A DNA stretch of 37,352 nucleotides from an uncultured Victivallaceae bacterium. GTDB taxonomy: Bacteria > Verrucomicrobiota > Lentisphaeria > Victivallales > Victivallaceae. A program made the position numbers and the translations under genes. The stretch lies in contig CALXOD010000025.1 in NCBI GenBank assembly GCA_944389925.1, forward strand, positions 1 to 37,352, given 5' to 3'. The notes beneath the pieces were generated by a model. That model did no database searches and was not told the origin of the DNA. It worked only from the letters and a program-made list of their open reading frames with translations. Below, in pieces: positions 9,387 through 27,121 of the stretch; the first letter of the stretch is position 1; the number at the start of each line of letters is the position of its first letter.

Positions 9387-12244
9387 TTTTCCTCCGTAAA
9401 CTCATAACAGGCGACCTTCGGTTCCGGCTTTTTCAGCCGGATCCAGCCCTGCTCCGCCGCAAGACGCCGCTCCGCGATCGTCCGCCCGTCCAGGTCGATC
9501 AGTTTCACCTGGTATGACGCCGCGGCGGGCAACCCGAGCTGCGCCGGATGAAACGCCAGATCGCGGAACGTCTTCTGCGGAAACAGCAGGAAACGCCCCG
9601 CCCCGTCCGGCCGGAACGCCGCGCCGCCGGAAGCGACGCGGATGCCGGGAACATTCACAGGCGCGTTCCGGGTGTGAATATAGTGGTATTCCGGCGATTT
9701 GACAAGGTCGTAATCAAGGGAGAACGCTTCCATTTTCCCATCCGGCATGACGGCGTAATAACCGGGCGCGGGAATGGTCCGTCCCGCGATCGTCCAGGGG
9801 TCGCCCTGTTTGTTCAAATTAACATACAGTTTGAGACCGTTTTCGTAGGCGACGTGGATGAACCCCTTTTTCCGGGCGGCGGTATGAAGCGCGGCGGAAC
9901 TCGGCATCAGTTTCTTTCCGTCGGAGTAGCCGATGCTGGAGACAGGAACGCCGAGATAACGGCGCTGCACCGCGTTGGTCAGAAAATAGACCCGCGCCTT
10001 GTCCGCCTCCGGCATCGCCGCGTGGCCGTAGGCCAGCGTCGCCGCGGCGAACTGCCGCACCCGGCTGTCGTCGGACGGATCGGCCTTTCCGCGGTAATAC
10101 ATGTTCCAGTCCCCCATGCCGAGCTGGATGGCGTGGGGTTTGATCCGGAGCAGATCGAAATCGACGATGTCGTCCAGTTCCATGAAACTGAGCCCGTGCC
10201 CGCAGTAACCGTAGGTGGCGTCGTAAAATCCGGCGTAGAGCCAGTTGCAGCCGCCTTCGGTGAAACAGGGGCCGTTGAAAAGTTCACGGTTACGCCGAAT
10301 CAGCGCCGCATGACCGAGAAACTCGCCCCGGAATTTGCCGGCCATCCAGGCGCCGGCGCGCATGTCGGGATTGCGCCACGGTTCGCGGCAACCGTGCACG
10401 TCCAGATAGGAAAAGGTCGGTTGATAGAGCCGGACGAATTCCGGCGCATAACGTTCCTGCAGCCGCTGAGCCGCCGCGGGAGTTACCTGATAGGAGCGGA
10501 ACTGCCCGTTCGAATCCCGCCGGAGATCGCGCACGGAAAACTCCGGCCCGAACGGATTCTGATCCATGTAGGAGTTGTAGGGCGCATATCCGAAACCGCG
10601 TTCCCGGAGCCCGCGGGAAAGATTTTGAATAAACGCCTCCCCTTTCGACGGAGCGGCGGCGGCACGATAGCCGTAAGACTCGTTGATGTCGCGGTGCAGG
10701 TCGGCGTGGCTGCGGAACTGGAAATCGCGCACTCCCTGCCAATAGAACTCCAGCGGCCAGTTCCATTCGCTCATTCCCCAGCGCCAGGAGGCGGCGGCAT
10801 ACTTTTCGATGTACGGGGAAACCGGATTAGGCAGTTTGGGCAGGATTTCGGAAAACTCTCCGGAGACGCTGAGCATGAAACGCTCATTCGGCGGATTCCG
10901 GGTTCCGTCGGTGAGTTTCTCATAGCGTACACCGCCGTTGACGCCAGCGGCGTTGCCGAAGAGCTTCGTCGCATCGCTGCGCCACGGATCGGCCAGCGCG
11001 CTCAGATAGTAATCTTTTCCAATCCATATCTTCGGTCCGTTCGGGTCGATTCTCAGGTAGGGAACGATCATCAGTTCGCCCGCATCGCCGTCGACGGCGC
11101 CGAAAGTGATTTCCGCCGTCCGGCCCTGCGGCGACGAGAAGTCGATATACAATGTTTTGCCGTGCAGCGACCAGGCGATTTCGTAATCGATCAGTTCATC
11201 GGTGTAACCGTCGCCGCCGACACTCGAGCGAGCCTGAAACCGCGTCCGGTAAACACCGTCCCGCCATTCCGTCCCCTTCAAAACGGTCTTCAGAAATTCG
11301 TCTCCCGGCCGCAGCAGTTCCTCCTCCGCCTCGAAAACCGGACCGCCACCGGCAAGCGGACGGAATTTCCGGCCGTTGAATTCCACCGTAAGATCGTCGA
11401 AGGTCCCGGTTTCCGGAGAAACCGTATAACGGATCGTCTCCCGGTCGCTTTCGGCCACGAAACTGACGTTCCGCCCGCGGCGTTCGATCCGGTTTTTCAC
11501 CGGTGTGACCGGTACCGGCCGGATCGTATCCTCCGCCGTCGGCTCCGGCAGCGGCAGCGGCGGAACCGCCGCCGGAAAGTCCAGCCGGTCCTCAAAAAGC
11601 TGCAGCGAATCGAGCAGCACGAAATACGGCGGCGCGATTTTCCGCCGGGGCCGGATCCGGCCGGTCACGGCGACGATTTTCCACGGCCGGGGCATGGCGG
11701 CGGAAGGCTCGGGCAGCCGCACCAGATACGGCATCCACATCCGGAAGCCGATCGGCGAATTCGTGAAGGCGACGGCATGGTCCCGGCCCCGGGCGTCCCG
11801 GATTTTCAACCCCAGTTCATAGACCGGACCGCCGGAATAGGAAAACTGCAAAGTCCGGTTCCAGAGCAGCGCCGCATTCTCCTGCTCGCCCACCGGCAGC
11901 GGCGCGGGCGGAATCAGTTCGAAAGTGGTGTTTTCGCGCCGGTTCAGCGACAATTCCGCGGCATATTTCCCATGGACGCGGGTGGCGGCGCTTTTTTTCA
12001 GCGTCATGCCTTCGGGGTTGCTCTTCAGCGTCCAGCCGTCGAGCGTCTCAAAACCCGCGATCTCATGAAAATCCGGCCGGGTCCTCCCGGCGGCAACCAT
12101 TTCCGGTGGATAGGCGCTGAGCGGAAACTCCACATGGTAATACTTCATCTGCTCCGTATCGGAATCGAAACGCGACACCGGCGCCTCCGCGGCGGCCGCC
12201 GCAAATCCGATCCCCGCCAATGCCCCCAGCATTATCTTTCGCAT
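9383..12244 (-). CDS. Large secreted glycosidase-like protein (possibly GH101-related)
   Basis: 953 aa from the ATG at 12244, chosen because AAGGA lies upstream and this start leaves a 7-nt gap after the previous stop; a longer frame starts at 12268. The signal peptide is KIMLGALAGIGFAAAAAEA. Approximate domain order: a carbohydrate-binding-like beta-sandwich (residues 40-220, with FETLDGWTL), a second beta-domain (260-460), an alpha/beta-barrel-like region (485-790) and a C-terminal beta-domain (810-953). In the barrel, YLDVHGCREPW (Asp about 615) and FTEGGCNW (Glu about 663) look like a nucleophile and acid/base pair, with spacing like that of retaining clan GH-R/GH101 enzymes. WNWPLEFYW and GMGDWNMYY add aromatic binding surfaces. 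The family assignment is inference; I am fairly sure it is a glycoside-active secreted enzyme. Confidence 0.6.
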   Translation of the reverse strand: MRKIMLGALAGIGFAAAAAEAPVSRFDSDTEQMKYYHVEFPLSAYPPEMVAAGRTRPDFHEIAGFETLDGWTLKSNPEGMTLKKSAATRVHGKYAAELSLNRRENTTFELIPPAPLPVGEQENAALLWNRTLQFSYSGGPVYELGLKIRDARGRDHAVAFTNSPIGFRMWMPYLVRLPEPSAAMPRPWKIVAVTGRIRPRRKIAPPYFVLLDSLQLFEDRLDFPAAVPPLPLPEPTAEDTIRPVPVTPVKNRIERRGRNVSFVAESDRETIRYTVSPETGTFDDLTVEFNGRKFRPLAGGGPVFEAEEELLRPGDEFLKTVLKGTEWRDGVYRTRFQARSSVGGDGYTDELIDYEIAWSLHGKTLYIDFSSPQGRTAEITFGAVDGDAGELMIVPYLRIDPNGPKIWIGKDYYLSALADPWRSDATKLFGNAAGVNGGVRYEKLTDGTRNPPNERFMLSVSGEFSEILPKLPNPVSPYIEKYAAASWRWGMSEWNWPLEFYWQGVRDFQFRSHADLHRDINESYGYRAAAAPSKGEAFIQNLSRGLRERGFGYAPYNSYMDQNPFGPEFSVRDLRRDSNGQFRSYQVTPAAAQRLQERYAPEFVRLYQPTFSYLDVHGCREPWRNPDMRAGAWMAGKFRGEFLGHAALIRRNRELFNGPCFTEGGCNWLYAGFYDATYGYCGHGLSFMELDDIVDFDLLRIKPHAIQLGMGDWNMYYRGKADPSDDSRVRQFAAATLAYGHAAMPEADKARVYFLTNAVQRRYLGVPVSSIGYSDGKKLMPSSAALHTAARKKGFIHVAYENGLKLYVNLNKQGDPWTIAGRTIPAPGYYAVMPDGKMEAFSLDYDLVKSPEYHYIHTRNAPVNVPGIRVASGGAAFRPDGAGRFLLFPQKTFRDLAFHPAQLGLPAAASYQVKLIDLDGRTIAERRLAAEQGWIRLKKPEPKVACYEFTEEK

Positions 12245-12251
12245 CTTATCT

Positions 12252-14414
12252 TCATTCCTTTCCCTCATGCCCCATGATCCTGATCCCGGTCAGGAAAAAG
12301 TGATTAACGGGATTGGCCCGGCGCGTGATCAGCCGGATCCAGCGGACCTGCCGGTCCACCGGAATCACCTGCCGCACAGCGGCAAAGCGTCCCTTTCGAT
12401 CCTCCGCGATCCGCGTCCAAGAAACGCCGTCCGTCGAAACTTCCACATCAAACGCATATTCCCAGCGGGTCTGCGCAAACTGCGGTGCCAGCGAGGTTAC
12501 CCGGTATACCCGCCCCAGATCATAGGTCAGCGACGACGTCGTACCGTCCGCGTTCCGAACCGGCACCGGCCAACAGGACCGAAAGTCCGAATAGCGTTTT
12601 TCCTGATCGCCTCGTTTCTCAATGGACTCCACCGGAAACAACAGCCGCGACCTTGCGGCCGCTCCGGCTCGGTCGACCGTGAACGTAAAGGCCGTTTCCC
12701 CTTTGAACGGCACTCCGGCGGAACTTTCCCAGCCGCCGCGCAGCACCATCCGGTAATCCCCGTCCGGGAGTTCCGCGTCCGGCACGAAGCGCAGCCGCAG
12801 CCCACCGTTCTCCAGGCGCCATTTTCCGGCAATCCGTTCCCCGCGTGCGTTGCACAGTTCCGCCCGGTTCGAATCATCCGGCACCGGCTTCATTGCCGGA
12901 AAAAAGTAGAATTCCGGCGTCACTTTCGGATCCAGCGTCTTCTGTTCGTTCAGCGGCAGATGATAAAGCAGCTCCGGTTCACCCGTCCCCTTCTTCATCA
13001 AAAAATGATCAAAGAAACGGCGTAACAACCGATCCCGGTCCAGTCCCCCCAGCCGCGAATCCCGTCCCTGCGGGAACGTGTGCGGCAAATCCGTCATATC
13101 CACCAGCGCCAGATGGGGAATATCGGACTTCTCCAGCGTGTCCCGCACCTTCACCGCGGCGTGATAACCGACATACGGATCCAGCTCCGAACGCCCGTAG
13201 AAAGCAGGCACGAATCCGGGCGCCAGCCACTCCCGGCTCATATTGCCGTTGAACATCGCCACACAGGTGATGTGGGCGGAGACGCCGGGCCAGGGCTGAG
13301 GATGGGTCATTTTCCGTGCTTCCAGCCGCTTTTCGCAGGCGGGATCCCCCAGAATGGCTCCTACCGGAGCGGATTTGGAGACGCCGCAGACGCCGATGCG
13401 GTCCGGATCCACCTGATAACGGGCGGCATCCAGCCGCAATTTCCGGATGGCCGCGGCATAAGCGTGGCGTTTATGCGCGGTCTCGGTGGGATCCCGGTGG
13501 GTGTAACATTCGAAGGCCTTGCACAGCGGCGTCATCGGATAATGAACGTTGGCATAGGCGTAGCCTCGAAAAAGAAAATTGGCAAGATTGATCCGCTCCG
13601 CCTCCGGAGGATAATGCGCAGCGTTCTCCCAACCGCTGTTGTACAGCACGAACAGCGGCACACTTTCCTCACACCGTCCGGGATAAATGATGTCATAACA
13701 CACCCGGTAATCCAACGGCTTACCGTGCATGTCGACCATGTCTTCCGACCGTGCCACTTTGCGGATGTTGAACTTCTTGTGCGATGGTCGATCGGCCAGT
13801 TCATTGTACAGCTGCATGGTAATCGCCAGACTCTCGGGAGCGGCGTGCTCACGCAGGTCGTAATACACCTGGTCCGTCGCCAGCCGGTATCCGGAGGGAA
13901 CCAGAAAAATCCGGAAAAATTTCGGCGGCTGCAAACCAGTTCCACTCAAAATGCCCGCGTCTTCCTCCCGGTAGATGTCGCGGTAAAGCGCCAGAAGATC
14001 CTGATCGAAATCAGGAGTCTTCGCCCGTGGGTGGTTTTTGAAATCGACCACCACCACCCAATGGCCGTCCCGGCACAGAAAATCCCGCAGAATCGTCGCG
14101 TCCGATTCCGTCCCGATCCGGGGGAAATTGCCGTTGATGAAATAGACCACACCATACCGGTAGCCGCGGTCCGGAACCGGCGTCGACTCATCGCAGAAAA
14201 TGGACAGCGTCGCCGTCACTCCGATTCCCCGGCACGGCCAGGACATCACTTTGCGGCAGAACGGTCGCAGTCCGTCCAATGTTTCCGGAAGCGTCTCCGT
14301 TCCAGATGCGCCGACGAAGCCTGCGCCACAGATCAGCCATGCGGCGATCAGGGGGCAAAGCCGGCATACGACACGTCTTCCCCAAAGAGATTTACCACTG
14401 CTCGTCAGCATCAT
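12252..14414 (-). CDS. Secreted alpha/beta-hydrolase with C-terminal discoidin-like domain
   Basis: 720 aa. It starts at an ATG with GGAGGAG 7 nt upstream; a hydrophobic segment at residues 17-36 is a probable signal peptide. Residues about 230-470 form an alpha/beta-hydrolase core: VPLFVLYNSGW (oxyanion side), GVCGVSKSAPVG with the presumed nucleophile Ser346, Asp412 in SELDPY and His445 in DLPHTF. The elbow is GVSKS rather than GxSxG. A small beta-domain follows (about 500-590). The last 120 residues (SLTYDLGRVYRVTSLAPQF...DVEVSTDGVSWTRI...VRWIRLI) match the F5/8-type-C/NPCBM carbohydrate-binding pattern. A role as carbohydrate esterase is likely; the substrate is unknown. It lies 18 nt after the pseudopilin gene and 7 nt before the glycosidase-like gene. 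Confidence 0.75.
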   Translation of the reverse strand: MMLTSSGKSLWGRRVVCRLCPLIAAWLICGAGFVGASGTETLPETLDGLRPFCRKVMSWPCRGIGVTATLSIFCDESTPVPDRGYRYGVVYFINGNFPRIGTESDATILRDFLCRDGHWVVVVDFKNHPRAKTPDFDQDLLALYRDIYREEDAGILSGTGLQPPKFFRIFLVPSGYRLATDQVYYDLREHAAPESLAITMQLYNELADRPSHKKFNIRKVARSEDMVDMHGKPLDYRVCYDIIYPGRCEESVPLFVLYNSGWENAAHYPPEAERINLANFLFRGYAYANVHYPMTPLCKAFECYTHRDPTETAHKRHAYAAAIRKLRLDAARYQVDPDRIGVCGVSKSAPVGAILGDPACEKRLEARKMTHPQPWPGVSAHITCVAMFNGNMSREWLAPGFVPAFYGRSELDPYVGYHAAVKVRDTLEKSDIPHLALVDMTDLPHTFPQGRDSRLGGLDRDRLLRRFFDHFLMKKGTGEPELLYHLPLNEQKTLDPKVTPEFYFFPAMKPVPDDSNRAELCNARGERIAGKWRLENGGLRLRFVPDAELPDGDYRMVLRGGWESSAGVPFKGETAFTFTVDRAGAAARSRLLFPVESIEKRGDQEKRYSDFRSCWPVPVRNADGTTSSLTYDLGRVYRVTSLAPQFAQTRWEYAFDVEVSTDGVSWTRIAEDRKGRFAAVRQVIPVDRQVRWIRLITRRANPVNHFFLTGIRIMGHEGKE

Positions 14415-15155: not shown

Positions 15156-16286
15156 TCACTGCATATTCCGATGCCTCCGGTCGTATTGTCTCTGTTCCGC
15201 CGGAGTCATGGCCGGTCCCAGCGTTTCGCCCTCCATGTAGGAATACCGGGTAAAACGGTTGCCGAATTCCAGAAAACCATTCCGCAACTGCCCGACCAGG
15301 GCCTCCATGCACATCATCCCCTCCTCCCGCGATGAGGAATAGGTACTCGCGATCCGGAACACCTTGACGAAATAATCGAACCGGCCGCTGTCGATCACCA
15401 CGCTGAGCCGCTTCGGGATTTCGATCCCGGCCAGCAGCAGCCGCCGGTAGATCTCCAACGCGGTGGCGCCGCCGAACGGCACCAGCAGCGCCGTATGGTC
15501 CCCCAACGCAGCCATTACCCGGTCTCCGGCCTCCGGACGCGGTACCGAAGAGTCGGAATTGAGGGTCAACTTGACGAAATCCGCTTTCACTCCGTCCGGA
15601 ATCAGTTCCCGGACATAGCCGCCGAGTTCCTCGCTTCCGCAGGGCACCAGAATGCGGCGGTGCCCCAGTTCCGCCAGACGGGAGAACAGCATGGTCAGTT
15701 TCTCGCGCTGCGGCAGAAAAACCCGGAGAAAACGCCGTTTCTCCAGTTCTCCAACCCGGTAGGGCATGCCGAGTGCCACGCAGGGCTTGAGCTGCCGCTC
15801 CAGAAACTGCCGGAGCCCTTCCGAAAGAAACGTCAGGATGTAACCGTCCGCCTCCACTCCGGAATAAAGCTGTTCCGGCGACTCCGCCCCGGCAACGAAA
15901 TGCCGTTCATCCAGTTCGCGAATCAGCAGATTCACCCCGTTCATCCCGGCGGAATGGATCGCGCCGCCGAGAAAATCTAGAAACGCCTGGTCCTCCACCA
16001 GTCGGCGACTGCAGAACAACACGACATTCCAGGCGCGCCGCTCCGGCGGCGGAACGACGTTCCCGGTCCGCTCTTCCCGGGACGGCGCCGCCGGAATCAG
16101 GGTGTGCCCGCGGCGCGGGTCCGACACGAGACGGCCCCCGTTCTGCAGCTCCTGCAACGCGGCCCGGATCGTAGCCCGGCTGGCCACATAGCGTTCGCCC
16201 AGCCGCCGTTCCCCCGGCAGTTTCCGCACGTCGGCATAATCGGTGTAGATCTGCTCCGCCAGTTTCTTGAACAGCTGCGATTTCAT
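15156..16286 (-). CDS. GntR-type regulator with LacI-like sugar-binding domain
   Basis: 376 aa from the ATG at 16286, chosen for AGGGG 9 nt upstream; the frame is open to 16331. Residues 1-65 form a GntR winged helix-turn-helix (LAEQIYTDY, LPGERRLGERYVASRATIRAALQELQNGG). From about residue 80 on, the periplasmic-binding-protein-like effector domain of LacI/GalR regulators follows: WNVVLFCSRR, FLGGAIHSAGMNGVNLLI, VEADGYIL, ELGHRRILVPCG, RLLLAGIEIPKRLSVVIDSGR. These AraR-like hybrids bind a sugar and release or bind DNA. It is first in its operon and its own promoter carries a candidate operator, so autoregulation is likely. It is also well placed to control the divergent lyase/rhamnosidase genes. 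Confidence 0.9.
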   Translation of the reverse strand: MKSQLFKKLAEQIYTDYADVRKLPGERRLGERYVASRATIRAALQELQNGGRLVSDPRRGHTLIPAAPSREERTGNVVPPPERRAWNVVLFCSRRLVEDQAFLDFLGGAIHSAGMNGVNLLIRELDERHFVAGAESPEQLYSGVEADGYILTFLSEGLRQFLERQLKPCVALGMPYRVGELEKRRFLRVFLPQREKLTMLFSRLAELGHRRILVPCGSEELGGYVRELIPDGVKADFVKLTLNSDSSVPRPEAGDRVMAALGDHTALLVPFGGATALEIYRRLLLAGIEIPKRLSVVIDSGRFDYFVKVFRIASTYSSSREEGMMCMEALVGQLRNGFLEFGNRFTRYSYMEGETLGPAMTPAEQRQYDRRHRNMQ

Positions 16287-16315
16287 GGCCGTTTCCCCTC
16301 TCCTGGTTTTTTTTA

Positions 16316-16337
16316 ACCAATACCATACCAATAGTAT
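16316..16337. promoter_or_regulatory. Candidate operator overlapping the regulator's promoter
   Basis: Two identical 7-mers ACCAATA (16316-16322 and 16327-16333; TATTGGT on the minus strand) lie exactly 11 bp apart, one helical turn. The second is part of an inverted repeat, ATAC-CAATA-GTAT (16325-16337), which covers the -10 box and the expected start of transcription. Binding here would block RNA polymerase. The link to the GntR/LacI-type regulator is inferred from position. Confidence 0.55.
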
Positions 16338-16361
16338 AGCAAAAACTTTTCTTCATGTCAA
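16333..16361 (-). promoter_or_regulatory. Near-consensus sigma70 promoter of the glycan operon
   Basis: The minus strand reads TTGACA (16356-16361), a 17-bp spacer, then TATACT (16333-16338). The -35 box is perfect and the -10 box differs from consensus at one position. The regulator's ATG lies about 47 bp downstream of the -10 box. Such a strong core promoter fits a gene kept off by repression. Confidence 0.85.
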
Positions 16362-16429
16362 GAACAACCGGAAAAAAACCCGGATTTTCCCCACCGGTCC
16401 GGTGAACATCATGAAAACACACTCCGTTT

Positions 16430-16464
16430 TTGCATTTGCAATCGCACCTGACCCGCGATAGAGT
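16430..16464 (+). promoter_or_regulatory. Candidate promoter with palindrome for the lyase/rhamnosidase pair
   Basis: The palindrome TTGCA-TT-TGCAA occupies 16430-16441. Its right part doubles as a -35-like box TTGCAA (16436-16441), followed after 17 bp by TAGAGT (16459-16464). Each box matches consensus at four of six positions. This weak promoter would need an activator or relief from a repressor. It lies in the 300-bp divergent gap (16287-16587), which holds no gene. Confidence 0.4.
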
Positions 16465-16587
16465 AAGAAGCCCGGCTCCATAACGCGCGAGACCGGTCCG
16501 TGTGTCCGGCGGATTCCGGCAGAACATCGAACAATGCCGGATACCGTCCGGAAGATGAGTTCAGCAGCAAAGGAATATTTTTTCGTG

Positions 16588-18369
16588 ATGAATTTCAATG
16601 AGTTGCTTCCGCTATGGCCGCCGCTGGAGGAGGCGCTGCTGCGCCGCTGTTCGTTTTTCGAACTTTATGTGCCGGACGGCGGCGGTTTTTTCGTCACCCG
16701 GGATCTGTTCGGCACCCTGGATGACGCGACCATTGTTCACAAGCTGCTGAAAACGAATGTCATGGATGATTTCGGAGGACTCGACCATCCGGATTTTCAC
16801 CGCTTCGAACGCTGGCGCAGCATCGAAAAAACCAGCTGGATCAACCGCTGCTATTTTCTGGTCCCCATGGCCCGTCAGGCGTGGCTGACCGGCGACCGCG
16901 ACCTGGCCCGCCGGGTGGCGCGCGTCATCCGGCATTTTGCCCGCACTTGTCCGCCGCCGGCTGACCGCCGGGCGCTGGAGGAACATTGGCGGCGCGTTTC
17001 CCGACGCCTGGATGAAGACTACAACTCCCAGAGCTACGAGACCATGATCCGGAACGAAACCGATGTCGAATACATCTGGTACGACATGCAGCCGGGCATG
17101 CGTCTGCTGCATTTTCTCTACTCCCTCTGGTTTATCCGGGACATCGCCGACCTGTCGGAGGCGGATTGGCGCGAACTGCTCGAATGCCTGCGGCGACACG
17201 TCCGGGTGCTGGCAGACCAGGAACACTTTCAGCAGCCGCACCCCGGCAATCACCAGTCATTGCGCGCCACGGCGCTCTATCACGGACTGCCGCTGCTGGC
17301 GGCGGATCCGGATTATCCGGAAATCCGTACCATGGCCGTGAACCTCTGCTGCTGGCACATCGAACAGGAATTTGCCGTCAGCGGCATGCTGAAGGAAAAT
17401 TCCCCGTCCTATCATGCGTTCACACTGTGGCATGCCCGGGATTTTCTGGCCCTGGCCGATCGCCGGGGCGACCCGGTGCCTGCGGCAGTCCGGGAGCGTT
17501 TTGCAGCCGCCGTCGCCGCGATGAACGGCTGTCGCCGTCCGGACGGTCTGACGCTGACGATCAACGACTCCTATACGTTTAACCCGGATGCGCTGCTGGC
17601 CTCGCTGCCTCCCGCGGTGACGGCGCCCGCGGCTTGTTCCGTGCTGCAGCCGGGAGGTATGGCGACCGGCCGCTGCGGCGACTGCTATGCGGCCATGGAC
17701 GTTTCCGAATTCACCGGCGGGTGTTCCCATTACCACGGCGGCAAAAACGCTCCGGTGGTCCTGTGGCGGGGACGCGCCTTTCTGGAAGAGGTCGGCTGTC
17801 CCAACTACGATCTGCCGCAATTCCAGCAGTGCAAACAATCCTCCCGGCACAGTTCGCTGCTGGTGGACGGCGCGGGCGACGCCCATGCCTTCGGCCTGTA
17901 CGGATTCGACGGCTGGGCGACGCTGACCTACGACAACGCCTGGTGGGAGGAACCGGACGGCCGCAAAAGCATCAGCGCCACCGAAACCAGCAACGTCCCC
18001 GCCTGGCAGGGAATCGTCTGGCAGCGTCGGCTGACGCTCGGCCCCTCCGGTATCGAGTTGAACGACCGAATCGACGGCGACGGGAACCACCATGATTTCA
18101 CGCTGTTGTTCGTTCTCACGCCCGAAGTCGCCGCCACCCGCGACACACAGACGGATGAATGGGTGTTGGTGAACGGCGATTACCGCGGTGTCCTGACGTT
18201 CCGCGGCGACGTGCCCGATACGGTCCGGGTGGAAACCGTCGAAGACTGCCGGCAGCGGGAATGCCGTCCCGTGCGACAGCTGGCGGTGGAGTTCCGGCAA
18301 CGGCGGAGCCTGCGCGTCATGACCGGGCTGACGTTTTCAATCGCAGCGCAGGGAGAGCAACGGCCGTGA
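16588..18369 (+). CDS. Heparinase II/III-family polysaccharide lyase-like protein
   Basis: 593 aa from the ATG at 16588. Upstream in-frame ATGs at 16534 and 16558 are possible; AAAGGA lies 13 nt before 16588, so the start is not certain. The N-terminal half is an alpha/alpha-toroid, the C-terminal half a beta-sandwich, as in heparinase II/III and oligo-alginate lyases. Likely active-site pieces are NHQSLRA (about 221), ENSPSYHAF (Tyr about 275) and SHYHGGKNA (His about 381 and 383). Relatives usually have HxHxD at the last site; here the Asp position is Gly. No signal peptide is seen, so it probably cleaves imported, uronate-containing oligosaccharides in the cytoplasm. It overlaps the next gene by 4 nt. 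Confidence 0.82.
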   Translation: MNFNELLPLWPPLEEALLRRCSFFELYVPDGGGFFVTRDLFGTLDDATIVHKLLKTNVMDDFGGLDHPDFHRFERWRSIEKTSWINRCYFLVPMARQAWLTGDRDLARRVARVIRHFARTCPPPADRRALEEHWRRVSRRLDEDYNSQSYETMIRNETDVEYIWYDMQPGMRLLHFLYSLWFIRDIADLSEADWRELLECLRRHVRVLADQEHFQQPHPGNHQSLRATALYHGLPLLAADPDYPEIRTMAVNLCCWHIEQEFAVSGMLKENSPSYHAFTLWHARDFLALADRRGDPVPAAVRERFAAAVAAMNGCRRPDGLTLTINDSYTFNPDALLASLPPAVTAPAACSVLQPGGMATGRCGDCYAAMDVSEFTGGCSHYHGGKNAPVVLWRGRAFLEEVGCPNYDLPQFQQCKQSSRHSSLLVDGAGDAHAFGLYGFDGWATLTYDNAWWEEPDGRKSISATETSNVPAWQGIVWQRRLTLGPSGIELNDRIDGDGNHHDFTLLFVLTPEVAATRDTQTDEWVLVNGDYRGVLTFRGDVPDTVRVETVEDCRQRECRPVRQLAVEFRQRRSLRVMTGLTFSIAAQGEQRP

Positions 18370-19991
18370 GGCATGAAATTCAGGAACAACGCGCCGATAT
18401 CCACCTTCATGGTTTGTTCGATTTCGGCCGGGCCGCCTACGGCACGCTCGAAGTGGGACTGACCGGTGATTACACCGGAAACGTCGAAGTGGTGATCGGC
18501 GAGGTCGCCCGGAACGGCTGCATCGTGCACCGTCCCGGATTCACGACGTTCCTTCACCGGATTTTCGCGCTGCGGAACGGCCGCCATTGCTACCGCTTCG
18601 AAATTCCCCGCCACCTGCCGGCCTACAGCGGGTTCCCCCATTGTGAAGCGCCGCCGGAGGCGGGCGGCGAGGTGGCGCCGTTCCGCTATGTCGAGATCAA
18701 CCGCTATCACGGCGTCGCGGTGGTCCGCCGTACCGTGTGGTTCGGCGACTGGGATGATGATGCGGCTCATTTCGCTTGTGATCAACCGGCACTGAACCGG
18801 GTATGGGACTTCTGTCGGTATTCTCTGAAAGCGACTTCCCTCTTCGATCGTTACGTTGACGGAGAACGGGAGCGCATGCCTTACGAAGGGGACGCCTACA
18901 TTACTCAACTTGGTCATTTCTGCTGCAACGCCCATTACCGGACGGCGCGCGACACCCTCGAACACTTCATGACCGGTCCCGGCCGGATGACCTGGTTGAC
19001 CGAATGGCTGTTGCTGACACCGCTGCTGGTACGCGATTATCTTTTGTATAGCGGTGATCGGGAGTCGGTCGAACGATGGCTTCCGGGACTCGACGAAAAA
19101 CTGCTCCCGAACTTATTGACCGACAATGGGCTTTTGAGCCCGGCCTCCTTCGCTGAATACAGCGGGACAGGTTTCATCCGAAACCAGGAAGGGATCGTGA
19201 TTTCCGGTCCGATCCGCGACTTGATCGACTGGCCGGAAACAGAGCGCGACCATTATGAACTCGGCAAAATCAACTTCGTTCCGAACGCCTGCCTTTATCT
19301 TGCGCTGCTGGCCATGCATGAACTGACCGGAGAAAGTTCCTATCAAAGCCGGGCGATGGCGTTGCGCCGGGCCATCCGCGCCGTTCTGCTGCGCAACGGC
19401 AGGTTCGTGGACTCGGAAAACTCGCAGCACACCGCGCTGCACACCGCCATGTTCGCGCTTCATACCGGCCTGACCGAACCCGATGAAATCCCGGTCCATC
19501 GGGATTTGCTGTTCTCCCGTGGTATGGCCTGCAGTGTCTTCGGCGCCCAGTTCCTGCTGGAGGCCTGTTATTGCCATCGCTGGGGCGATCACGCGCTCAA
19601 ATTGATGACCGATGATGGAGAACGCAGCTGGCTGAACATGCTGCGGGAAGGCTCCACGATCACGATGGAAAGCTGGGGGGACCGCTGGAAACCCAATCAG
19701 GACTGGAACCATCCGTGGGGTGCAGCTCCGGCCAATATCGTCATCCGACATTTGTGCGGTATCCGACCACTGGCGCCGGGATTTTCCCGTTTTATCGTAG
19801 ATCCGCAACCGGCCGGTCTACAATGGCTGGAATGCCGCCAGCCGACACCACACGGTCCGATTGAACTGCGTCTGGAGGGTGATATTCTTGAATGGCAGGC
19901 TCCAGCCGGAACCGAAGCAGTCTATGCCGGCAGAATCCTGCCGGGCGGTCCCCGGAAACAAGTGCAGAAAATCACCCGCCCCTCCATTTAA
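18366..19991 (+). CDS. GH78-like alpha-L-rhamnosidase, short form
   Basis: 541 aa from a GTG at 18366 overlapping the lyase stop (GTGA), with AGGGAGA about 10 nt upstream. The frame is open further upstream but runs inside the lyase gene. The N-terminal 130 residues are beta-rich. The (alpha/alpha)6 barrel carries VDGERERMPYEGDAY (about residues 163-177), which corresponds to the DxxRDERxGWxGDA active-site motif of GH78, and later ESWGDRW...DWNHPWGAAP (about 435-455), matching the second motif. GH78 enzymes remove alpha-L-rhamnose by inversion. Full-length members are usually 700-1000 aa, so accessory beta-domains are missing. With no signal peptide it should act in the cytoplasm on the lyase products. 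Related unsaturated-uronate or other hexose specificity is possible. Confidence 0.75.
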   Translation: MRHEIQEQRADIHLHGLFDFGRAAYGTLEVGLTGDYTGNVEVVIGEVARNGCIVHRPGFTTFLHRIFALRNGRHCYRFEIPRHLPAYSGFPHCEAPPEAGGEVAPFRYVEINRYHGVAVVRRTVWFGDWDDDAAHFACDQPALNRVWDFCRYSLKATSLFDRYVDGERERMPYEGDAYITQLGHFCCNAHYRTARDTLEHFMTGPGRMTWLTEWLLLTPLLVRDYLLYSGDRESVERWLPGLDEKLLPNLLTDNGLLSPASFAEYSGTGFIRNQEGIVISGPIRDLIDWPETERDHYELGKINFVPNACLYLALLAMHELTGESSYQSRAMALRRAIRAVLLRNGRFVDSENSQHTALHTAMFALHTGLTEPDEIPVHRDLLFSRGMACSVFGAQFLLEACYCHRWGDHALKLMTDDGERSWLNMLREGSTITMESWGDRWKPNQDWNHPWGAAPANIVIRHLCGIRPLAPGFSRFIVDPQPAGLQWLECRQPTPHGPIELRLEGDILEWQAPAGTEAVYAGRILPGGPRKQVQKITRPSI

Positions 19992-20101: not shown

Positions 20102-20977
20102 TCAATGCCGTTTTCTTTTCCGGCGTGCCGCCAGCAGGGCAAGAACCTGTTCCGGCAGGTTTTCCGGCGGCCGCCGCCGGGTTCGGCATTCCCGGTAGAA
20201 ACGGATGTACGCCGCCACCTTTTCCGGTGAAAGTACGAATGTTTCAAAAAAATCCCCGAGATCCCGTTTTACACACCTTCCCAGACTCCATCCAGACACC
20301 AGGCGCCCGGTGGCGACGTCTATCAGCACCAGCCGCATGGGAACATCAGCCGACGGCTTGCACCAGAGAATATTATAAGGTTTGAAGCCTTTGTGAAAAT
20401 AATTCAGATCATGCAATCCTGCCAGCTGGCGCAGACATCCCCGGATAAACTCGTCCTGTTCCGCCCACTGTTCACGGCCGCCGCCGTCCAGAAACGCCCG
20501 ACCGTCGCGACTCCCCGCGACGAAGCGGGTAATGAGAAACGCCTTCTGCCAACAACCGAATCGGCGTGCCTCTCCCGCCCCGAGCAGTTCCGCCATGGGG
20601 AAACCGGCCAATGCCAGCATCCGATAGTTGATCGATTCGGAGAGTGCGGGAGACGGTCCCGGAAGAAAACGGCGTCTGGGAGCCATTGATTTAAATACAA
20701 TCTCATCGCCTCCGGCTGCGGCGGGTACAGCAATTTTCGTCACCAGTTTACGCCGGGTCTGCCACAGAATTTCGCCCGCCTTCCGGGGGTCCGGCAACCC
20801 GCGCAGAAAATCAGCACCGGCACGAAATTCGGGAACATAATAACTCCAGCTTCGCCCTTTGCCAGCAGCAAACTCCTGCAGTACCCGGCGCCGGATCCGG
20901 CCCAAGTCCATGAGGCCGGATTCTTCCGAGTCCGGCCTCCTCGGCGGGCCGGAATGTTTTTCCTGCGATTTTTCCAT
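20102..20977 (-). CDS. WaaP/Kdo-kinase-family protein with altered catalytic loop
   Basis: 291 aa, cytosolic. It has the outline of a lipopolysaccharide-kinase (Kdo/WaaP, RIO-like) domain: EIVFKSM with the presumed ATP lysine K96, a helix-C glutamate at E114 (SESINY), a hinge ITRFV, the catalytic loop HKGFKPYNIL at 195-204, and the metal-binding Asp in LIDVATGR (D220). In active members the loop reads H-x-D-x-K-P-x-N; here Asp is replaced by Gly197 (codon GGC at 20387-20389) while Lys199 and Asn202 are kept. That suggests weak or no phosphotransfer, i.e. a pseudokinase, unless another residue substitutes. Related proteins phosphorylate lipid-A core sugars. The start is uncertain: an ATG at 20911 (residue 23) is an alternative, as no clear ribosome-binding site precedes 20977. 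Confidence 0.75.
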   Translation of the reverse strand: MEKSQEKHSGPPRRPDSEESGLMDLGRIRRRVLQEFAAGKGRSWSYYVPEFRAGADFLRGLPDPRKAGEILWQTRRKLVTKIAVPAAAGGDEIVFKSMAPRRRFLPGPSPALSESINYRMLALAGFPMAELLGAGEARRFGCWQKAFLITRFVAGSRDGRAFLDGGGREQWAEQDEFIRGCLRQLAGLHDLNYFHKGFKPYNILWCKPSADVPMRLVLIDVATGRLVSGWSLGRCVKRDLGDFFETFVLSPEKVAAYIRFYRECRTRRRPPENLPEQVLALLAARRKRKRH

Positions 20978-21100: not shown

Positions 21101-23044
21101 CTACCAGACGACTTCCAGAATCACTGCCTGCAACGGTGCCAATGTCAGACGATTTCCGGCAAAGTCTCCCTCTCCCGCAACCGGCCGCACCACAGTGGGC
21201 GGCTGCTGACAGAGCAGTTCACCGGAAACGCTTTCCCGGCGATGGTTAATCACAGTCACCCAGCCGTGTCCGGGCCGGTCCGGATTCCAGTACCGTTCGC
21301 ACTGCGGATCATCGAAATCCACCACCGGCCTCAGGCCGGCCATATCACGCAGCTGCCGATACAACCGCCATGCAGGCACTGTTTCGGGAGCATCGACAGT
21401 CGCCGCCAGGGATTTTTCCAGTGGCAGAGGGAGAAAACATGCGGTTCCCGTCCCACAGGCATGCCGCACCATAAGCGGTGCCCCATCAGCAGAGCGGGCC
21501 ATGATTTCCGCATCGCAGGCATGAATGCGGGCCCCAAATTCCGCCTGAATGGCGTATTCAAACCCGCAATCGAATCGGACATTTTCCCGTCCCTCCCGCA
21601 ATGGAATCTTCTCCATCTCCCGGATACCGAACAAGCGATCGCACCCGGTTAGACTGACCCCGTCCCCCGAAACATACAGCACACAGCCGGCTGCCACCGC
21701 CTTCTGCACCGCCTCCCAGGCGGGCACGGAGAGCGGCGCCAGACCGGAAAGCGATGGGGCCAGCAGCAACCGGTATGGCGAAAGATCATCATAGCCGGGC
21801 CGTACGATTGCCGGCGAAAATCCCGCCTGCGTGCACAATACCAGACAATTGAACGCCGCCAGCCAGTCATCATTCAGGTCGCTGACCAGAATGGCCGCCC
21901 GGCGCTCCTGATCCGGCAGCCGCCCGCCGAACTGCTCGACCACCTGGCGGAATTTGCGCATTTCCCCGGCCGCGGGCCGGGGACTGCCGTCGCTCCGGGT
22001 CAGGGCGGGACCGTTGTTTTCCATCTGTACGTCGCGGTAAGGCAGTTCGTCGGCGCAGAGGAAGTCGCTGTAACACCACCAGAGGCACCCGGCCACGCCG
22101 TTGGCGAACAGGCTGTACAGCCGCATCCGCAGATACGCCGCGCTCAACGGCTCTGAAAGAATGCTGCTGCCCAGCGTTCCCGTCTCCTCGCATAACGTCG
22201 GACGTTTGCCTAAATCCGCCACATAACGGCTCTCCGCCGTCGCATGCAGATTGGCCCGCAGCGAAGTCAGAGCATCCTTGAAACAGCCTGGAGTAAATTC
22301 CGGATATGGATGGGTCGTCAGAAAATCCACTGCGTCGGCACAGTCGGTAATCCCCCACGGCGCCTGCGGCGACGGTACCTGACGCAATCCGTGCATCCCG
22401 GCGCCGATGGGCGTTTCCGGATCGCGCAGACGCAGTTCCGCGGCGATCGCGTGCATCCAGACCCAGGCGGTTTCCGGAGAGTCGCAATGATCCACACAAT
22501 TCTGCTCATTTCCGTATTCCCACGCCAGAATCTCAGGACGCCCTGCGTAGCGCGCGGCGAACGCCCGACAGTAAAGCATCTGGTATTTCACCATGAAGGG
22601 ATCGCGGAAGAGATTGCGCCCGTTTTTCCAGGTGGGATTGAACAAGGTGCCGCTCATCCATGCCGTCATCAATGCCACGATCAACTTCAGGTGATGTTTA
22701 CCGGCAAGTTCCACAACTTTGTCGAATTTCCGGAACATCTCCGGATCCATCATTTCCGGATTGAGTCCCGGCGAGACCTTCCAGTCATGACGCATCCCGA
22801 CAGTCCGCGGCTGGTTTTCGCATCCCGGCAGTTCATAAATCGGTTGAAAGTCATCCCACAACGGAAAAACCCGCACCGTATCCATGCCGAGATCCCGGAT
22901 CTGGGCAAATTCCGCATCGATTTCCTCCGCATCAAACCGGCGCCACATCCGGACACCGCTCCGACGCGGCCAGTAATTGACCCCCAGCAGGAATTTTTCT
23001 TCCAGAAAACGCTGCGGCAGGTCTTTCCCATGGGAGAGATTCAT
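21101..23044 (-). CDS. Clan GH-A glycoside hydrolase (GH5/GH42-like), intracellular
   Basis: 647 aa from the ATG at 23044 (GGCGG 6 nt upstream); an ATG at 23056 and a GTG at 23089 are alternatives. It opens with FLLGVNYWPRRSGVRMW and AQIRDLGMDTVRVFPLWDDF, the first strands of a TIM barrel. ILAWEYGNEQN carries the acid/base Glu (about 180), and TLCEETGTLG the nucleophile Glu (286 or 287). An extra domain from about residue 375 (AAILVSDLNDDWLAAFNCLV, then LLLAPSL) resembles the glutamine-amidotransferase-like trimerisation domain of GH42 beta-galactosidases. A small beta-domain closes the protein. The enzyme is retaining, with beta-galactosidase- or beta-mannosidase-type activity expected. It has no signal peptide, so it acts on imported oligosaccharides. 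It lies 112 nt after paaK. Confidence 0.82.
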   Translation of the reverse strand: MNLSHGKDLPQRFLEEKFLLGVNYWPRRSGVRMWRRFDAEEIDAEFAQIRDLGMDTVRVFPLWDDFQPIYELPGCENQPRTVGMRHDWKVSPGLNPEMMDPEMFRKFDKVVELAGKHHLKLIVALMTAWMSGTLFNPTWKNGRNLFRDPFMVKYQMLYCRAFAARYAGRPEILAWEYGNEQNCVDHCDSPETAWVWMHAIAAELRLRDPETPIGAGMHGLRQVPSPQAPWGITDCADAVDFLTTHPYPEFTPGCFKDALTSLRANLHATAESRYVADLGKRPTLCEETGTLGSSILSEPLSAAYLRMRLYSLFANGVAGCLWWCYSDFLCADELPYRDVQMENNGPALTRSDGSPRPAAGEMRKFRQVVEQFGGRLPDQERRAAILVSDLNDDWLAAFNCLVLCTQAGFSPAIVRPGYDDLSPYRLLLAPSLSGLAPLSVPAWEAVQKAVAAGCVLYVSGDGVSLTGCDRLFGIREMEKIPLREGRENVRFDCGFEYAIQAEFGARIHACDAEIMARSADGAPLMVRHACGTGTACFLPLPLEKSLAATVDAPETVPAWRLYRQLRDMAGLRPVVDFDDPQCERYWNPDRPGHGWVTVINHRRESVSGELLCQQPPTVVRPVAGEGDFAGNRLTLAPLQAVILEVVW

Positions 23045-23156
23045 AGTTTCCGCCATTTCCCTTTGCTGTTGAATTGCCGAACCGGGCACTTGTTCTGACG
23101 GAGCGGTACGGCGGTCCGCCTGAATTGCCGCTTTCCCGCTCGTCCGGACTCATCTG

Positions 23157-24485
23157 TCAATCGATCTTGAGTCCCCGCTTATCGATCACCCGCTTCACTT
23201 TGCCGGTAGAACGCTCCAGCGAATTGGGCTCCACCAGCTCCACCTGGAAGTGAATTCCGGTAATGCCGGTAATTTCCCGCGAAATCCGATCGCGCAGCCG
23301 ATGCAGCTCCTCCATCTTGTCGGAAAATTCCTGCGGCCGCATTTCCACCTTGACCACCGCCTCGTCCAGATTGTGCGGACGGTACAGCTCGATCACGTAA
23401 TGCGGAGCGGTCCCCCCCACCCGGAGCAGCGCTTCCTCCACCTGGGAGGGAAATACGTTTACGCCGCGAATGATCATCATGTCGTCCGTCCGCCCTTTGA
23501 CCCGGCTCATGCGGCGGGTCGTCCGCCCACAGGGACAGTCGCCCTCCAGCAGCCGCGCCAGATCACGCGTCCGGTAACGGATAATCGGACAGGCCTCCTT
23601 GGTCAACGCGGTAATCACCAATTCCCCCTCTTCTCCCGGAGCAACCGGTTCCAGCGTTTGCGGATTGACACACTCGACGATGAAATGGTCCTCCTGAATA
23701 TGCATTCCAGTCCGTGCCGCGCATTCACCGCTGACGCCTGGACCGATGATTTCCGAAAGGCCGTAATTGTTGAATGCCCGGATTCCCAGCGCCTCTTCGA
23801 TCGCCTTGCGCATATCCTCCGTCCACTGTTCGCCACCGAAATGAGCATAGCGCAGCGCCAGATCGCCGGGCTTCAGTCCCTGATCCTGCAGTACGTCGAT
23901 CAAATTCAGTGCGTAACTCGGAGTGCAAATCAGGGTGTTGACTTTGGCATCCTTCAGCAGCAGCACCTGACGCTGGGTGTTCCCGCTGGACGCGGGGATC
24001 ACCGCCGCGCCCACCCGTTCAATGCCGTAATGAAGTCCAAAGCCTCCGGTAAACAGTCCGTATCCGAAAGAGACCTGCGCCACCTGATCCGGCGTCAAAC
24101 CGCCGCCGACCAGAAAACGCGCACACAACTCCGACCAGAGCTTCAGGTCATTCCGGGTATACCCCACGAATGTCGGTTTGCCCGTCGTACCGCTGGATGC
24201 ATGAATCCGCACCAGTTCTGAGCGCGGTACAGCAAAAAAACCGAAAGGATAATGATCCCGCAAATCCTGCTTGGTCGTAAACGGCAGCCGCCGGAGATCA
24301 TCCAATGATCGGATCGACTCCGGTGTAATACCCGCCTCCTTGAATTTCTGCCGGTAAAAAGGAATATTCCCGGCATGTCTGACCGCATTCCGCAGCCGTT
24401 CCAGTTGCAATCCCCGGCGCTCAGCCGGATCCATGCACTCCGCCGCCGGATCGAAAATCCGGTTCTCAATCAGAAATGGATTCAT
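23157..24485 (-). CDS. paaK: Phenylacetate-CoA ligase (AMP-forming)
   Basis: 442 aa, cytosolic. It activates phenylacetate or a related aryl acid to its CoA thioester using ATP. The adenylate-forming-enzyme P-loop is HASSGTTGKPTFVGYT (about residues 94-109); further conserved parts are YGLFTGGFGLHYG, NNYGLSEIIGPGVSGEC, the Asp of RYRTRDLARLL, and the hinge/C-terminal domain VKGRTDDMMIIRGVNVFPSQVEE with the final Lys region STGKVKRVIDKRG. Length is normal. In anaerobes and archaea this gene commonly travels with iorAB and an ACT-domain gene, exactly as here, linking it to conversion of aromatic amino acids to aryl acetates. The ribosome-binding site (GAGAG) is weak. It is last of the ior group. 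Confidence 0.95.
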   Translation of the reverse strand: MNPFLIENRIFDPAAECMDPAERRGLQLERLRNAVRHAGNIPFYRQKFKEAGITPESIRSLDDLRRLPFTTKQDLRDHYPFGFFAVPRSELVRIHASSGTTGKPTFVGYTRNDLKLWSELCARFLVGGGLTPDQVAQVSFGYGLFTGGFGLHYGIERVGAAVIPASSGNTQRQVLLLKDAKVNTLICTPSYALNLIDVLQDQGLKPGDLALRYAHFGGEQWTEDMRKAIEEALGIRAFNNYGLSEIIGPGVSGECAARTGMHIQEDHFIVECVNPQTLEPVAPGEEGELVITALTKEACPIIRYRTRDLARLLEGDCPCGRTTRRMSRVKGRTDDMMIIRGVNVFPSQVEEALLRVGGTAPHYVIELYRPHNLDEAVVKVEMRPQEFSDKMEELHRLRDRISREITGITGIHFQVELVEPNSLERSTGKVKRVIDKRGLKID

Positions 24486-24999: not shown

Positions 25000-25494
25000 T
25001 TACCGGTCCGCGTTCTTCCCCCGCCGTCCCAGACGGAATGCGGCGATATTTACCTCATGCACCTTCTCCGGCAGATTGCGGCAAACATGCTTCAGCCACA
25101 ATTCCTCCGGCAGGTCGAAATGACGGCTCAGTGCCCCCAGCATCAGAATGTTTGCCGCTTTCGGATTTTCCAGCTCTGCCAGCGGCACGTCGTCGGGCGT
25201 GATCAACACGCCGCCGGCACGCAGTTTGCTGAGATTGACTTCCACCTGAGTCGAATCCAGCACCAGCAGATAATCCGTCTCTCCGGCAGGCACCATCGGG
25301 CTGAACACCCGATCCCCGAAACGAACTTCACTCGATACGGATCCTCCCCGCTGACTCATGCCGTGCACTTCGCTTTTCTTCACGTCAAATCCGGCATCAA
25401 ACAACGCTTCCGCCAGAATGTCTGTTACTTTCAGCACCCCCTGGCCGCCGAGCCCGGCCACGGTGATATTCACAACTTTTCCCATAACGCTCAT
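25000..25494 (-). CDS. iorB: Indolepyruvate:ferredoxin oxidoreductase beta subunit
   Basis: About 164 aa from the ATG at 25494, which overlaps the iorA stop by 4 nt (ATGA). Another ATG at 25485 is better spaced from GGGAGGA, so the true start is one of these two. The gamma-type 2-oxoacid oxidoreductase domain is clear: NITVAGLGGQGVLKVTDILAE, KKSEVHGMSQRGGSV, and DYLLVLDSTQ. With IorA it oxidatively decarboxylates aryl pyruvates to aryl-acetyl-CoA. The tight overlap suggests 1:1 synthesis of the two subunits. Confidence 0.95.
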   Translation of the reverse strand: MSVMGKVVNITVAGLGGQGVLKVTDILAEALFDAGFDVKKSEVHGMSQRGGSVSSEVRFGDRVFSPMVPAGETDYLLVLDSTQVEVNLSKLRAGGVLITPDDVPLAELENPKAANILMLGALSRHFDLPEELWLKHVCRNLPEKVHEVNIAAFRLGRRGKNADR

Positions 25495-27074
25495 TTTCCT
25501 CCCAGCTGATAAGCCTTGGCTTTCACCGCGGCCAGAATGCACGGACGGCGTGCAATAATGACGCTCAGATCGTTCGATGCCAGACGCTCCTTCAGAATAC
25601 CCGCGAAGTGTTCCCGATCCAGCGTCGGATCGCAGATATCCACATGGTCCACACCGATCGCCCGGACCACATCCTCAATCACCACCTTCGGTGCGGGCGT
25701 ATGGTCCAGCTTGCGGCCGGTGGCGGGATTTTCCTGCATCCCGGTCATCGCCGTAATAGAATTATCCAGGATAATCACCACGTGACCGGTCTTCGGCCGA
25801 TTGTATACCATTTCCACAATGCCGTTGATCCCGGTATGCAGAAACGTACTGTCGCCGATGACGCTGACCACCCGGCGCGCCTCCGCCTCCGGCAGCGCGT
25901 GCCGCATTCCCAGCCCGGTGGTAATACTCGCCCCCATGCAGACGCAGGTATCCACCGCTTCGAACGGCGGCAGCACTCCCAGCGTATAACATCCGATGTC
26001 GCCGGCTACAATGCAGCCGAAATCCCGCAGCACTTCATATGTGCGACGATGCGGGCATCCGACACAGAGCTGCGGCGGCTTGCCTGCCGGCGGCGCGGCT
26101 TCCGGTGTCGTGTCTCCGGCCAGGATCCGCCGGACCCGCCCCACCGAAAGCTCTCCGAAGCGATACATCTCCGCCTTGCCTTCCACCTTGACTCCGGCAG
26201 CCAGACAGGCTTCCGCCAGAATCGGGTCGCCCTCTTCCAGCACGACACAGCGTTTGACACCGGCGGCGAATTTCCGGATCCGCTCCATCGGCAGCGGGTA
26301 CGTCATCCCCAGCTTCAATACCGAAGCTTCGGGGGCGGCATCACGCGCATGCTGATAGGAAATTCCCGTAGCGATAATACCGAGTTCGCTTGAGCCGTGA
26401 TCCTCATGAATGAACTCCCCTTCTTCATTAAAACGGGCCAGCTCCGCAAGTTTCGCCCGAAGCTTCCGATGGGCAATGCGTGCGTAAGCGGGAATCATCA
26501 CATTGGACTGCACGTCCTTCTCATAAGCGATGGCCGGCGCCGGAGAGGCATTCGGACGGCGAATCAGCGCCCCTTTGGAATGGCAGACCCGGGTCGTCAT
26601 CCGCAGCAGCACCGGGCAACGATAGCGTTCAGCCAGTTCGAACGCGCGAATCGTGAAATCATACGCCTCCTGCGAATCAGATGGTTCCAGCATCGGAACT
26701 CCCGCGGCAATGGCATAACGCCGATTATCCTGTTCATTCTGGCTGGACGCCATGCCGGGGTCGTCGGCGGAAACGATCACCAATCCCCCGGGCGTCCCCG
26801 AATAGGCAATGGTGAAGAGCGGGTCGGCCGCCACATTCAACCCCACATGTTTCATCGTCACAATGCTGCGACCGCGGGCGAAGGCAACGCCGATCCCGAC
26901 TTCCAGTGCCACCTTTTCATTCGGCGCCCATTCAGCCTGACCGCCGAGCGCCGCCACATTTTCCAGAATCTCCGAAGAGGGTGTCCCGGGGTAGCCCACG
27001 CCCAGGCACAGACCGCTGTCCAGAGCGGCCCGGGCGATCGCCTCGTTGCCGCTGACCAATTCTTTTTCAATCAT
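25491..27074 (-). CDS. iorA: Indolepyruvate:ferredoxin oxidoreductase alpha subunit, lacking the ferredoxin domain
   Basis: 527 aa from the ATG at 27074 (GGAG 8 nt upstream; a GTG at 27083 is in frame). N-terminal pyrimidine-binding domain: ELVSGNEAIARAALDSG, GYPGTPSSEILE, and HVGLNVAADPL. The C-terminal thiamine-diphosphate-binding half contains LCVGCPHRRTYEVL, GDIGCYTLG, and the ThDP motif GDSTFLHTGINGIVEMVYN with IILDN. Typical IorA proteins are about 600-650 aa and end in a domain binding two [4Fe-4S] clusters through CxxCxxCxxxCP repeats. Here the protein stops after IIARRPCILAAVKAKAYQLGGK, with no such cysteines. Electron delivery must therefore use a separate ferredoxin-like subunit, or the gene is truncated. 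First of the ior-paaK group; it follows the unknown 493-aa gene by 47 nt. Confidence 0.93.
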   Translation of the reverse strand: MIEKELVSGNEAIARAALDSGLCLGVGYPGTPSSEILENVAALGGQAEWAPNEKVALEVGIGVAFARGRSIVTMKHVGLNVAADPLFTIAYSGTPGGLVIVSADDPGMASSQNEQDNRRYAIAAGVPMLEPSDSQEAYDFTIRAFELAERYRCPVLLRMTTRVCHSKGALIRRPNASPAPAIAYEKDVQSNVMIPAYARIAHRKLRAKLAELARFNEEGEFIHEDHGSSELGIIATGISYQHARDAAPEASVLKLGMTYPLPMERIRKFAAGVKRCVVLEEGDPILAEACLAAGVKVEGKAEMYRFGELSVGRVRRILAGDTTPEAAPPAGKPPQLCVGCPHRRTYEVLRDFGCIVAGDIGCYTLGVLPPFEAVDTCVCMGASITTGLGMRHALPEAEARRVVSVIGDSTFLHTGINGIVEMVYNRPKTGHVVIILDNSITAMTGMQENPATGRKLDHTPAPKVVIEDVVRAIGVDHVDICDPTLDREHFAGILKERLASNDLSVIIARRPCILAAVKAKAYQLGGK

Positions 27075-27121
27075 CGCTTCCACTCCATATCATCTGTCAT
27101 AAGATTTGCGATTCATCTCCC

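Follow-up and report, generated by a model that had tools for sequence, protein, structure and literature searches.

The window, a 37,352-nucleotide stretch of DNA from an uncultured Victivallaceae bacterium, carries a Kdo/WaaP-like open reading frame in which the catalytic Asp of the kinase HRD motif is replaced by Gly. The replacement is a fixed trait of a whole family, of which the 72 distinct members compared form one clade and all lack Asp at this position, and the frame itself is under purifying selection. Reading the residue pattern, we hold with moderate confidence that these proteins constitute an expanded clade of putative ATP/Mg-binding pseudokinases, found in one bacterial class (Lentisphaeria) and descended from lipopolysaccharide-type kinases, in which bound ATP would probably serve some purpose besides the usual phosphorylation.

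The frame (P0001; 20102..20977, minus strand) is open over 291 codons from an ATG start. Kdo/WaaP (PF06293) is the only Pfam family that it matches, and the match is marginal (21.7 bits with a curated cut-off of 21.3, E 1.5e-4); at E<=0.001 the same family is matched by 12 of the 14 members of the family alignment. Of the residues that go with PF06293, P0001 has the ATP Lys, the helix-C Glu and the metal Asp and lacks the Asp of HxD. Sequence profiles support a probable kinase fold for the ORF; an AlphaFold2 model, whose input was only two sequences, reached no more than pLDDT 43 and pTM 0.36. The sequence-only reading had described the catalytic loop as HKGFKPYN with Gly197 at the place of the catalytic Asp and the remaining ATP and metal residues intact, and the translation bears this out: Gly197 is encoded by GGC at 20389-20387, and K96, E114, the loop residues K199 and N202 and the metal-binding D220 are all present, although the family as a whole does not conserve K199, which is Lys in just 2 of the 72 members. 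The features are listed in Table 1.

Table 1. Coordinates of the pseudokinase-like frame and of its key residues in the window.
Feature	Position	Strand	Evidence
Kdo/WaaP-like pseudokinase ORF (putative), 291 aa (P0001)	20102..20977	(-)	PF06293 21.7 bits; dN/dS 0.14-0.18
Catalytic loop H195-K-G-F-K-P-Y-N202 (kinases: HxDxxxxN)	20372..20395	(-)	ORF translation and family tables
Gly197 codon GGC, HRD Asp position	20387..20389	(-)	Asp in 0/72 family members
Lys96, beta-3 (ATP) lysine	20690..20692	(-)	72/72 members
Glu114, helix-C glutamate	20636..20638	(-)	71/72 members, remaining one Asp
Asp220, metal-binding Asp (DFG equivalent, IDVA)	20318..20320	(-)	71/72 members
Asp239, C-lobe structural Asp	20261..20263	(-)	72/72 members
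Lys77, Gly-rich-loop region, family-specific	20747..20749	(-)	70/72 members; Lys in 0/20 Asp-bearing homologues

The nearest relative of P0001 is an orthologue with 82% identity from a congeneric genome (L041 in G002), and it too has Gly in the Gly197 column, encoded there by GGG; close relatives with Asp, for which the sequence-only reading had proposed that orthologues be aligned, were not found. Over the 289 codons compared between the two genes, dN and dS are 0.137 and 0.778 by NG86 and 0.127 and 0.908 by YN00, a dN/dS of about 0.14-0.18, which is the mark of purifying selection. A paralogue in the same genome as P0001, at 34% identity, has the loop HKAIHPRN and with it Ala in the Asp column.

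A profile built from 14 family sequences was run over 197 genomes of the class and 387 of the phylum, where family members score about 150-350 bits and other proteins 122 and below. At a threshold of at least 145 bits the class search yielded 108 matches in 76 of the 197 genomes. Of these genomes, 59 are in the order to which P0001 belongs and 17 in another family-level group of the class (f21), and 30 carry more than one family copy, with either two or three; the family counts given here rest on 72 distinct sequences from among the 108 matches. Among the matches listed for the phylum sample of 387 genomes, none from outside the class reached 145 bits. Profile matches of any kind at E<=0.001, ordinary Kdo-type kinases included, occur in 169 of the 197 class genomes and 182 of the 387 phylum genomes.

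A quick IQ-TREE run on 93 rows, from which the eight loop columns had been removed, gave a tree with SH-aLRT as its only support, a midpoint root and a number of long terminal branches. In it the 72 members form one group (SH-aLRT 98), and the kinases that adjoin this group have Asp and come from the same class and phylum. Duplicates were left out of the tree, as were ten non-family homologues of the 31, all of which have Asp and score no higher than about 60 bits. Loss of the Asp, when labelled on this tree, needs two changes, the second of which is that of L124, a sequence kept in the tree and counted in neither the 72 family members nor the 20 Asp-bearing rows. This protein (from G158) is a Kdo-type homologue with the loop HRTLRFRN, which sits on a long branch of its own, separate from the clade, and apparently lost its Asp independently.

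Across the 72 distinct members the Asp column holds 39 Gly, 30 Ala, 2 His and 1 Thr, so that one of the two smallest residues stands there in 69 of 72. Homologues outside the family have Asp in 30 of 31 cases in one table, the exception being L124 with Thr, and WaaP proteins newly fetched by a PF06293 search have it in 29 of 29. The genome of P0001 itself has seven PF06293 matches, namely two family members, three Asp-bearing proteins outside the family (L005 with HRD in HRDCYICHFLL, L007 with HGD in HGDLSLRN and L008 with HPD in HPDFHGGN), among which L005 is a canonical WaaP, and two below the cut-off that lie outside the comparison. The absence of Asp from the family is more than chance.

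A pseudokinase is a kinase fold without the beta-3 Lys, the HRD Asp or the DFG Asp, and of these three motif residues at least one, the HRD Asp, is gone in all 72 members. The other functional positions are largely kept, with K96 in 72 members, E114 in 71, H189 in 72, H195 in 70, N202 in 64, D220 in 71 and D239 in 72. When one nine-member subclade of f21 (L105-L113) is set apart, only K96, E114, H189, H195, N202, D220, D239 and Y261 are invariant in the remaining 63, here called the main members. The available text of PMC1821047 gives ten residues common to kinase families (in its own numbering G52, K72, E91, P104, H158, H164, D166, N171, D184 and D220); with columns paired by hand, eight of these recur in 62 or all 63 of the main members, and the family lacks the other two, D166 and the Gly of the loop.

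The f21 subclade departs further from this pattern. At the Asn202 column its nine members have Lys (six), Ala (one), Ser (one) and Asn (one), D220 is replaced by Asn in L109, and H195 is gone in L112 and L113. A Lys in place of the loop Asn is also described for TRIB1, where, according to the part of PMC4718504 available, no nucleotide binding was seen. The subclade may represent a second step, away from metal binding, and ATP-Mg binding would not be universal in the family, because the Asn is lost in eight of the nine subclade members and the metal Asp in one.

Several positions changed together with the Asp. Lys77 is present in 70 of the 72 members and in none of the 20 Asp-bearing rows; in the near Asp-bearing sisters a basic residue already precedes position 77 by one or two places, and the shift is therefore alignment-dependent and perhaps small. 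A Fisher test on these columns counts related sequences as independent and is given no weight. G159 is found in 59 of the 63 main members as against Leu in 10 of 10 near Asp-bearing relatives, P200 in 55 of 63 as against Trp in 8 of 10, and A222 in 59 of 63 as against Pro in 10 of 10. An acidic residue (Glu or Asp) occupies position 136 throughout the 63 main members, as it does in half of the 20 rows that have the catalytic Asp; this position aside, the 63 contain no invariant acidic column that is new relative to the Asp-bearing relatives. Immediately before Asn202, none of the 72 members has an acidic residue. The suggestion that the base had moved as in AMPylating pseudokinases, in the form known from SelO, fails on these two observations, whereas the companion suggestion, a pseudokinase that still binds nucleotide, agrees with the fixed Gly/Ala and the retained Lys-Glu-Asn-Asp set, from which binding would follow.

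The gene lies between a GH5/42-like gene upstream (21101-23089, minus strand) and an alpha-L-rhamnosidase-like frame (18159-19991, plus strand). The latter stands together with GntR-type regulator and heparinase II/III-like frames at 15156-19991, a group beside the pseudokinase-like gene that resembles a polysaccharide-degradation cluster. Elsewhere in the window, two frames at 25003-27083 (minus strand) have domains of the pyruvate/indolepyruvate ferredoxin oxidoreductase type and are adjoined by an AMP-binding (phenylacetate-CoA-ligase-like) frame at 23157-24485, and a 961-aa frame at 9386-12268 (minus strand), overlapped by a 909-aa frame on the opposite strand, has no Pfam match at E<=0.001. 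When ORFs were called greedily in the surroundings of members and sisters (39 stretches), no operon partner proved to be conserved family-wide, and the position of the gene differs even between the genus's two species. The neighbours tallied by Pfam (90 of 93, three long frames of L162 and L165 being left out) have scattered functions, the commonest being HTH_AraC (5), Kdo (4), GFO_IDH_MocA (3) and Glycos_transf_1 (3). A GFO/IDH/MocA gene is directly upstream in two members (L166 and L169), and the Asp-bearing sister in G109 adjoins peptide-transport genes, not sugar genes. All four Kdo neighbours come from two stretches of one genus, g36 (L168 and L173, in G081 and G084), where three kinase-fold genes follow one another: the Asp-less gene, oppositely oriented, is flanked by waaP on one side and by a Kdo-like gene on the other, both of which have the Asp; in a third g36 genome (G076) waaP is next to the family gene by coordinates. 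These three genomes with the gene beside waaP provide a weak tie to lipopolysaccharide.

Based on these data we propose that the ancestor was probably an Asp-bearing small-molecule kinase of the Kdo/WaaP type and that, in the ancestor of one clade, the base Asp would have given way to Gly or Ala while Lys96, Glu114, Asn202 and Asp220 stayed fixed. ATP-Mg would then be held in the kinase cleft without canonical base-assisted phosphoryl transfer, and the ATP-loaded state may signal through its conformation or act as a regulator, probably in the sugar metabolism of the cell envelope. Binding of ATP-Mg is suggested by the invariance of the Lys-Glu-Asn-Asp set. In Pseudomonas aeruginosa WaaP the substitutions D163A, H161A, K51A and D188N resulted in no growth and R162A was mild, as the accessible portion of PMC6147952 describes; as D163A abolishes WaaP function, canonical phosphotransfer is unlikely in the family, and by this analogy kinase activity would have been lost. 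The coexistence of Asp-bearing WaaP/Kdo proteins in the genome of P0001 also speaks for a pseudokinase. The regulatory role is an inference, and since no neighbour is conserved family-wide, no partner supports it.

That P0001 is a normal Kdo/WaaP-type sugar kinase in which Gly197 is a sequencing error or arose by a mutation that recently inactivated the enzyme is hardly credible: nothing speaks for it, and the alignment refutes it through the Gly written with another codon in the orthologue, the Ala of the paralogue, the lack of Asp throughout the 72 members and the low dN/dS. Against the pseudokinase reading it can be objected that a full ATP and metal set in 63 divergent members exceeds what a pure scaffold needs and could mean catalysis. 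The main rival, which we consider unlikely though deserving of attention, is a catalytically active, base-free ATP-dependent enzyme on a re-used kinase fold, acting either on an acceptor that is already ionised (phosphate or carboxylate) or on ATP bound differently (AMP transfer, ATPase); the small Gly or Ala would make room, and Lys77 over the nucleotide would hold the phosphates. It draws on the eight invariant columns of the main members, among which is every ATP and metal residue, on the confinement of 69 of 72 substitutions to Gly or Ala, on the changes at Lys77, G159, P200 and A222 that accompany that of the Asp, and on SelO, which transfers AMP without an HRD Asp (PMC12409994, in the text available). 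Against it are the want of a relocated acid of the SelO kind and of a SelO Pfam match, the basic residues of the sisters near 77, given which the change there may be small and a matter of alignment, and the loss of the metal Asn from most of the nine-member subclade. Taken a step further, the family might amount to an enzyme class so far undescribed for the Kdo/WaaP fold, a transferase that uses ATP with neither the HRD Asp nor a SelO-type replacement and that transfers AMP, or phosphate to an ionised acceptor, or something else, with Lys77 as a new phosphate contact; we find this doubtful, slightly more so than the base-free enzyme at large.

The opposite departure, a non-catalytic scaffold with vestigial nucleotide binding whose fold serves contacts with proteins or with lipids and sugars, fits the scattered gene positions and the subclade that has mostly dispensed with Asn202 and also, in one member, with the metal Asp and, in two, with His195. 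A vestigial site would not keep its nucleotide-site residues invariant in the other 63 members, however, and we regard this explanation as quite improbable. We thus retain the candidate pseudokinase that binds ATP-Mg as the reading of choice.

Searches of the open-access literature for Lentisphaer with pseudokinase and for KdkA with pseudokinase found no paper, and PF06293 with pseudokinase led to the SelO prediction paper only. Among known bacterial systems, the Ser/Thr pseudokinases ActPs1-3, CP1, DYD and DLHK are likewise conserved bacterial families of unknown function, but they are relatives of Ser/Thr protein kinases (PMC12599244); the terms Kdo, WaaP and lipopolysaccharide have no occurrence in the available text of that review.

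The closest structure is WaaP (RfaP, the LPS core heptose(I) kinase), whose entry 6dfl came first in a PDB sequence search with the family profile (E 4.3e-9, profile 89-259). The Glu, the HxD loop and the metal Asp follow one another in it as they do in the family, and its HRD Asp is aligned opposite the family Gly; unlike the family, where Gly or Ala is found and the Asn is mostly kept, WaaP has HRD and a His (H168) where the Asn stands. The closest sequences are Kdo-type kinases that have the Asp and belong to the same class (L114-L119 and L121, with loops such as HFDLHWRN and HYDLKWRN); they come next below the family in profile score, from 122 bits down, and in the tree are grouped beside the clade. 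They share the Lys, Glu, Asn and metal Asp and differ in having the Asp, in lacking Lys77 and in having Leu for Gly159, mostly Trp for Pro200 and Pro for Ala222.

SelO, the AMPylating pseudokinase, resembles the family in being a kinase fold without the HRD Asp that keeps the Lys, Glu, Asn and metal Asp, and differs from it in an Asp directly before the conserved Asn (D338-N339 in the human protein), as far as the available text of PMC3281104 goes; the portion of PMC12409994 at hand describes the catalytic Asp of SelO as shifted and AMP transfer as possible for a kinase fold without the HRD Asp. The SelO profile (PF02696) has no match to P0001 at E<=1 in the Pfam scan and none in its genome, and SelO is present in 1 of the 41 genomes searched. 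A divergent, multi-copy clade in which only the HRD Asp is missing and the remaining ATP and metal residues are invariant shows the pattern from which SelO emerged as a previously unknown type of enzyme. Here this pattern arises within a family of lipopolysaccharide sugar kinases, and it offers a concrete way to test whether selection can maintain ATP use in a kinase fold that lacks its base.
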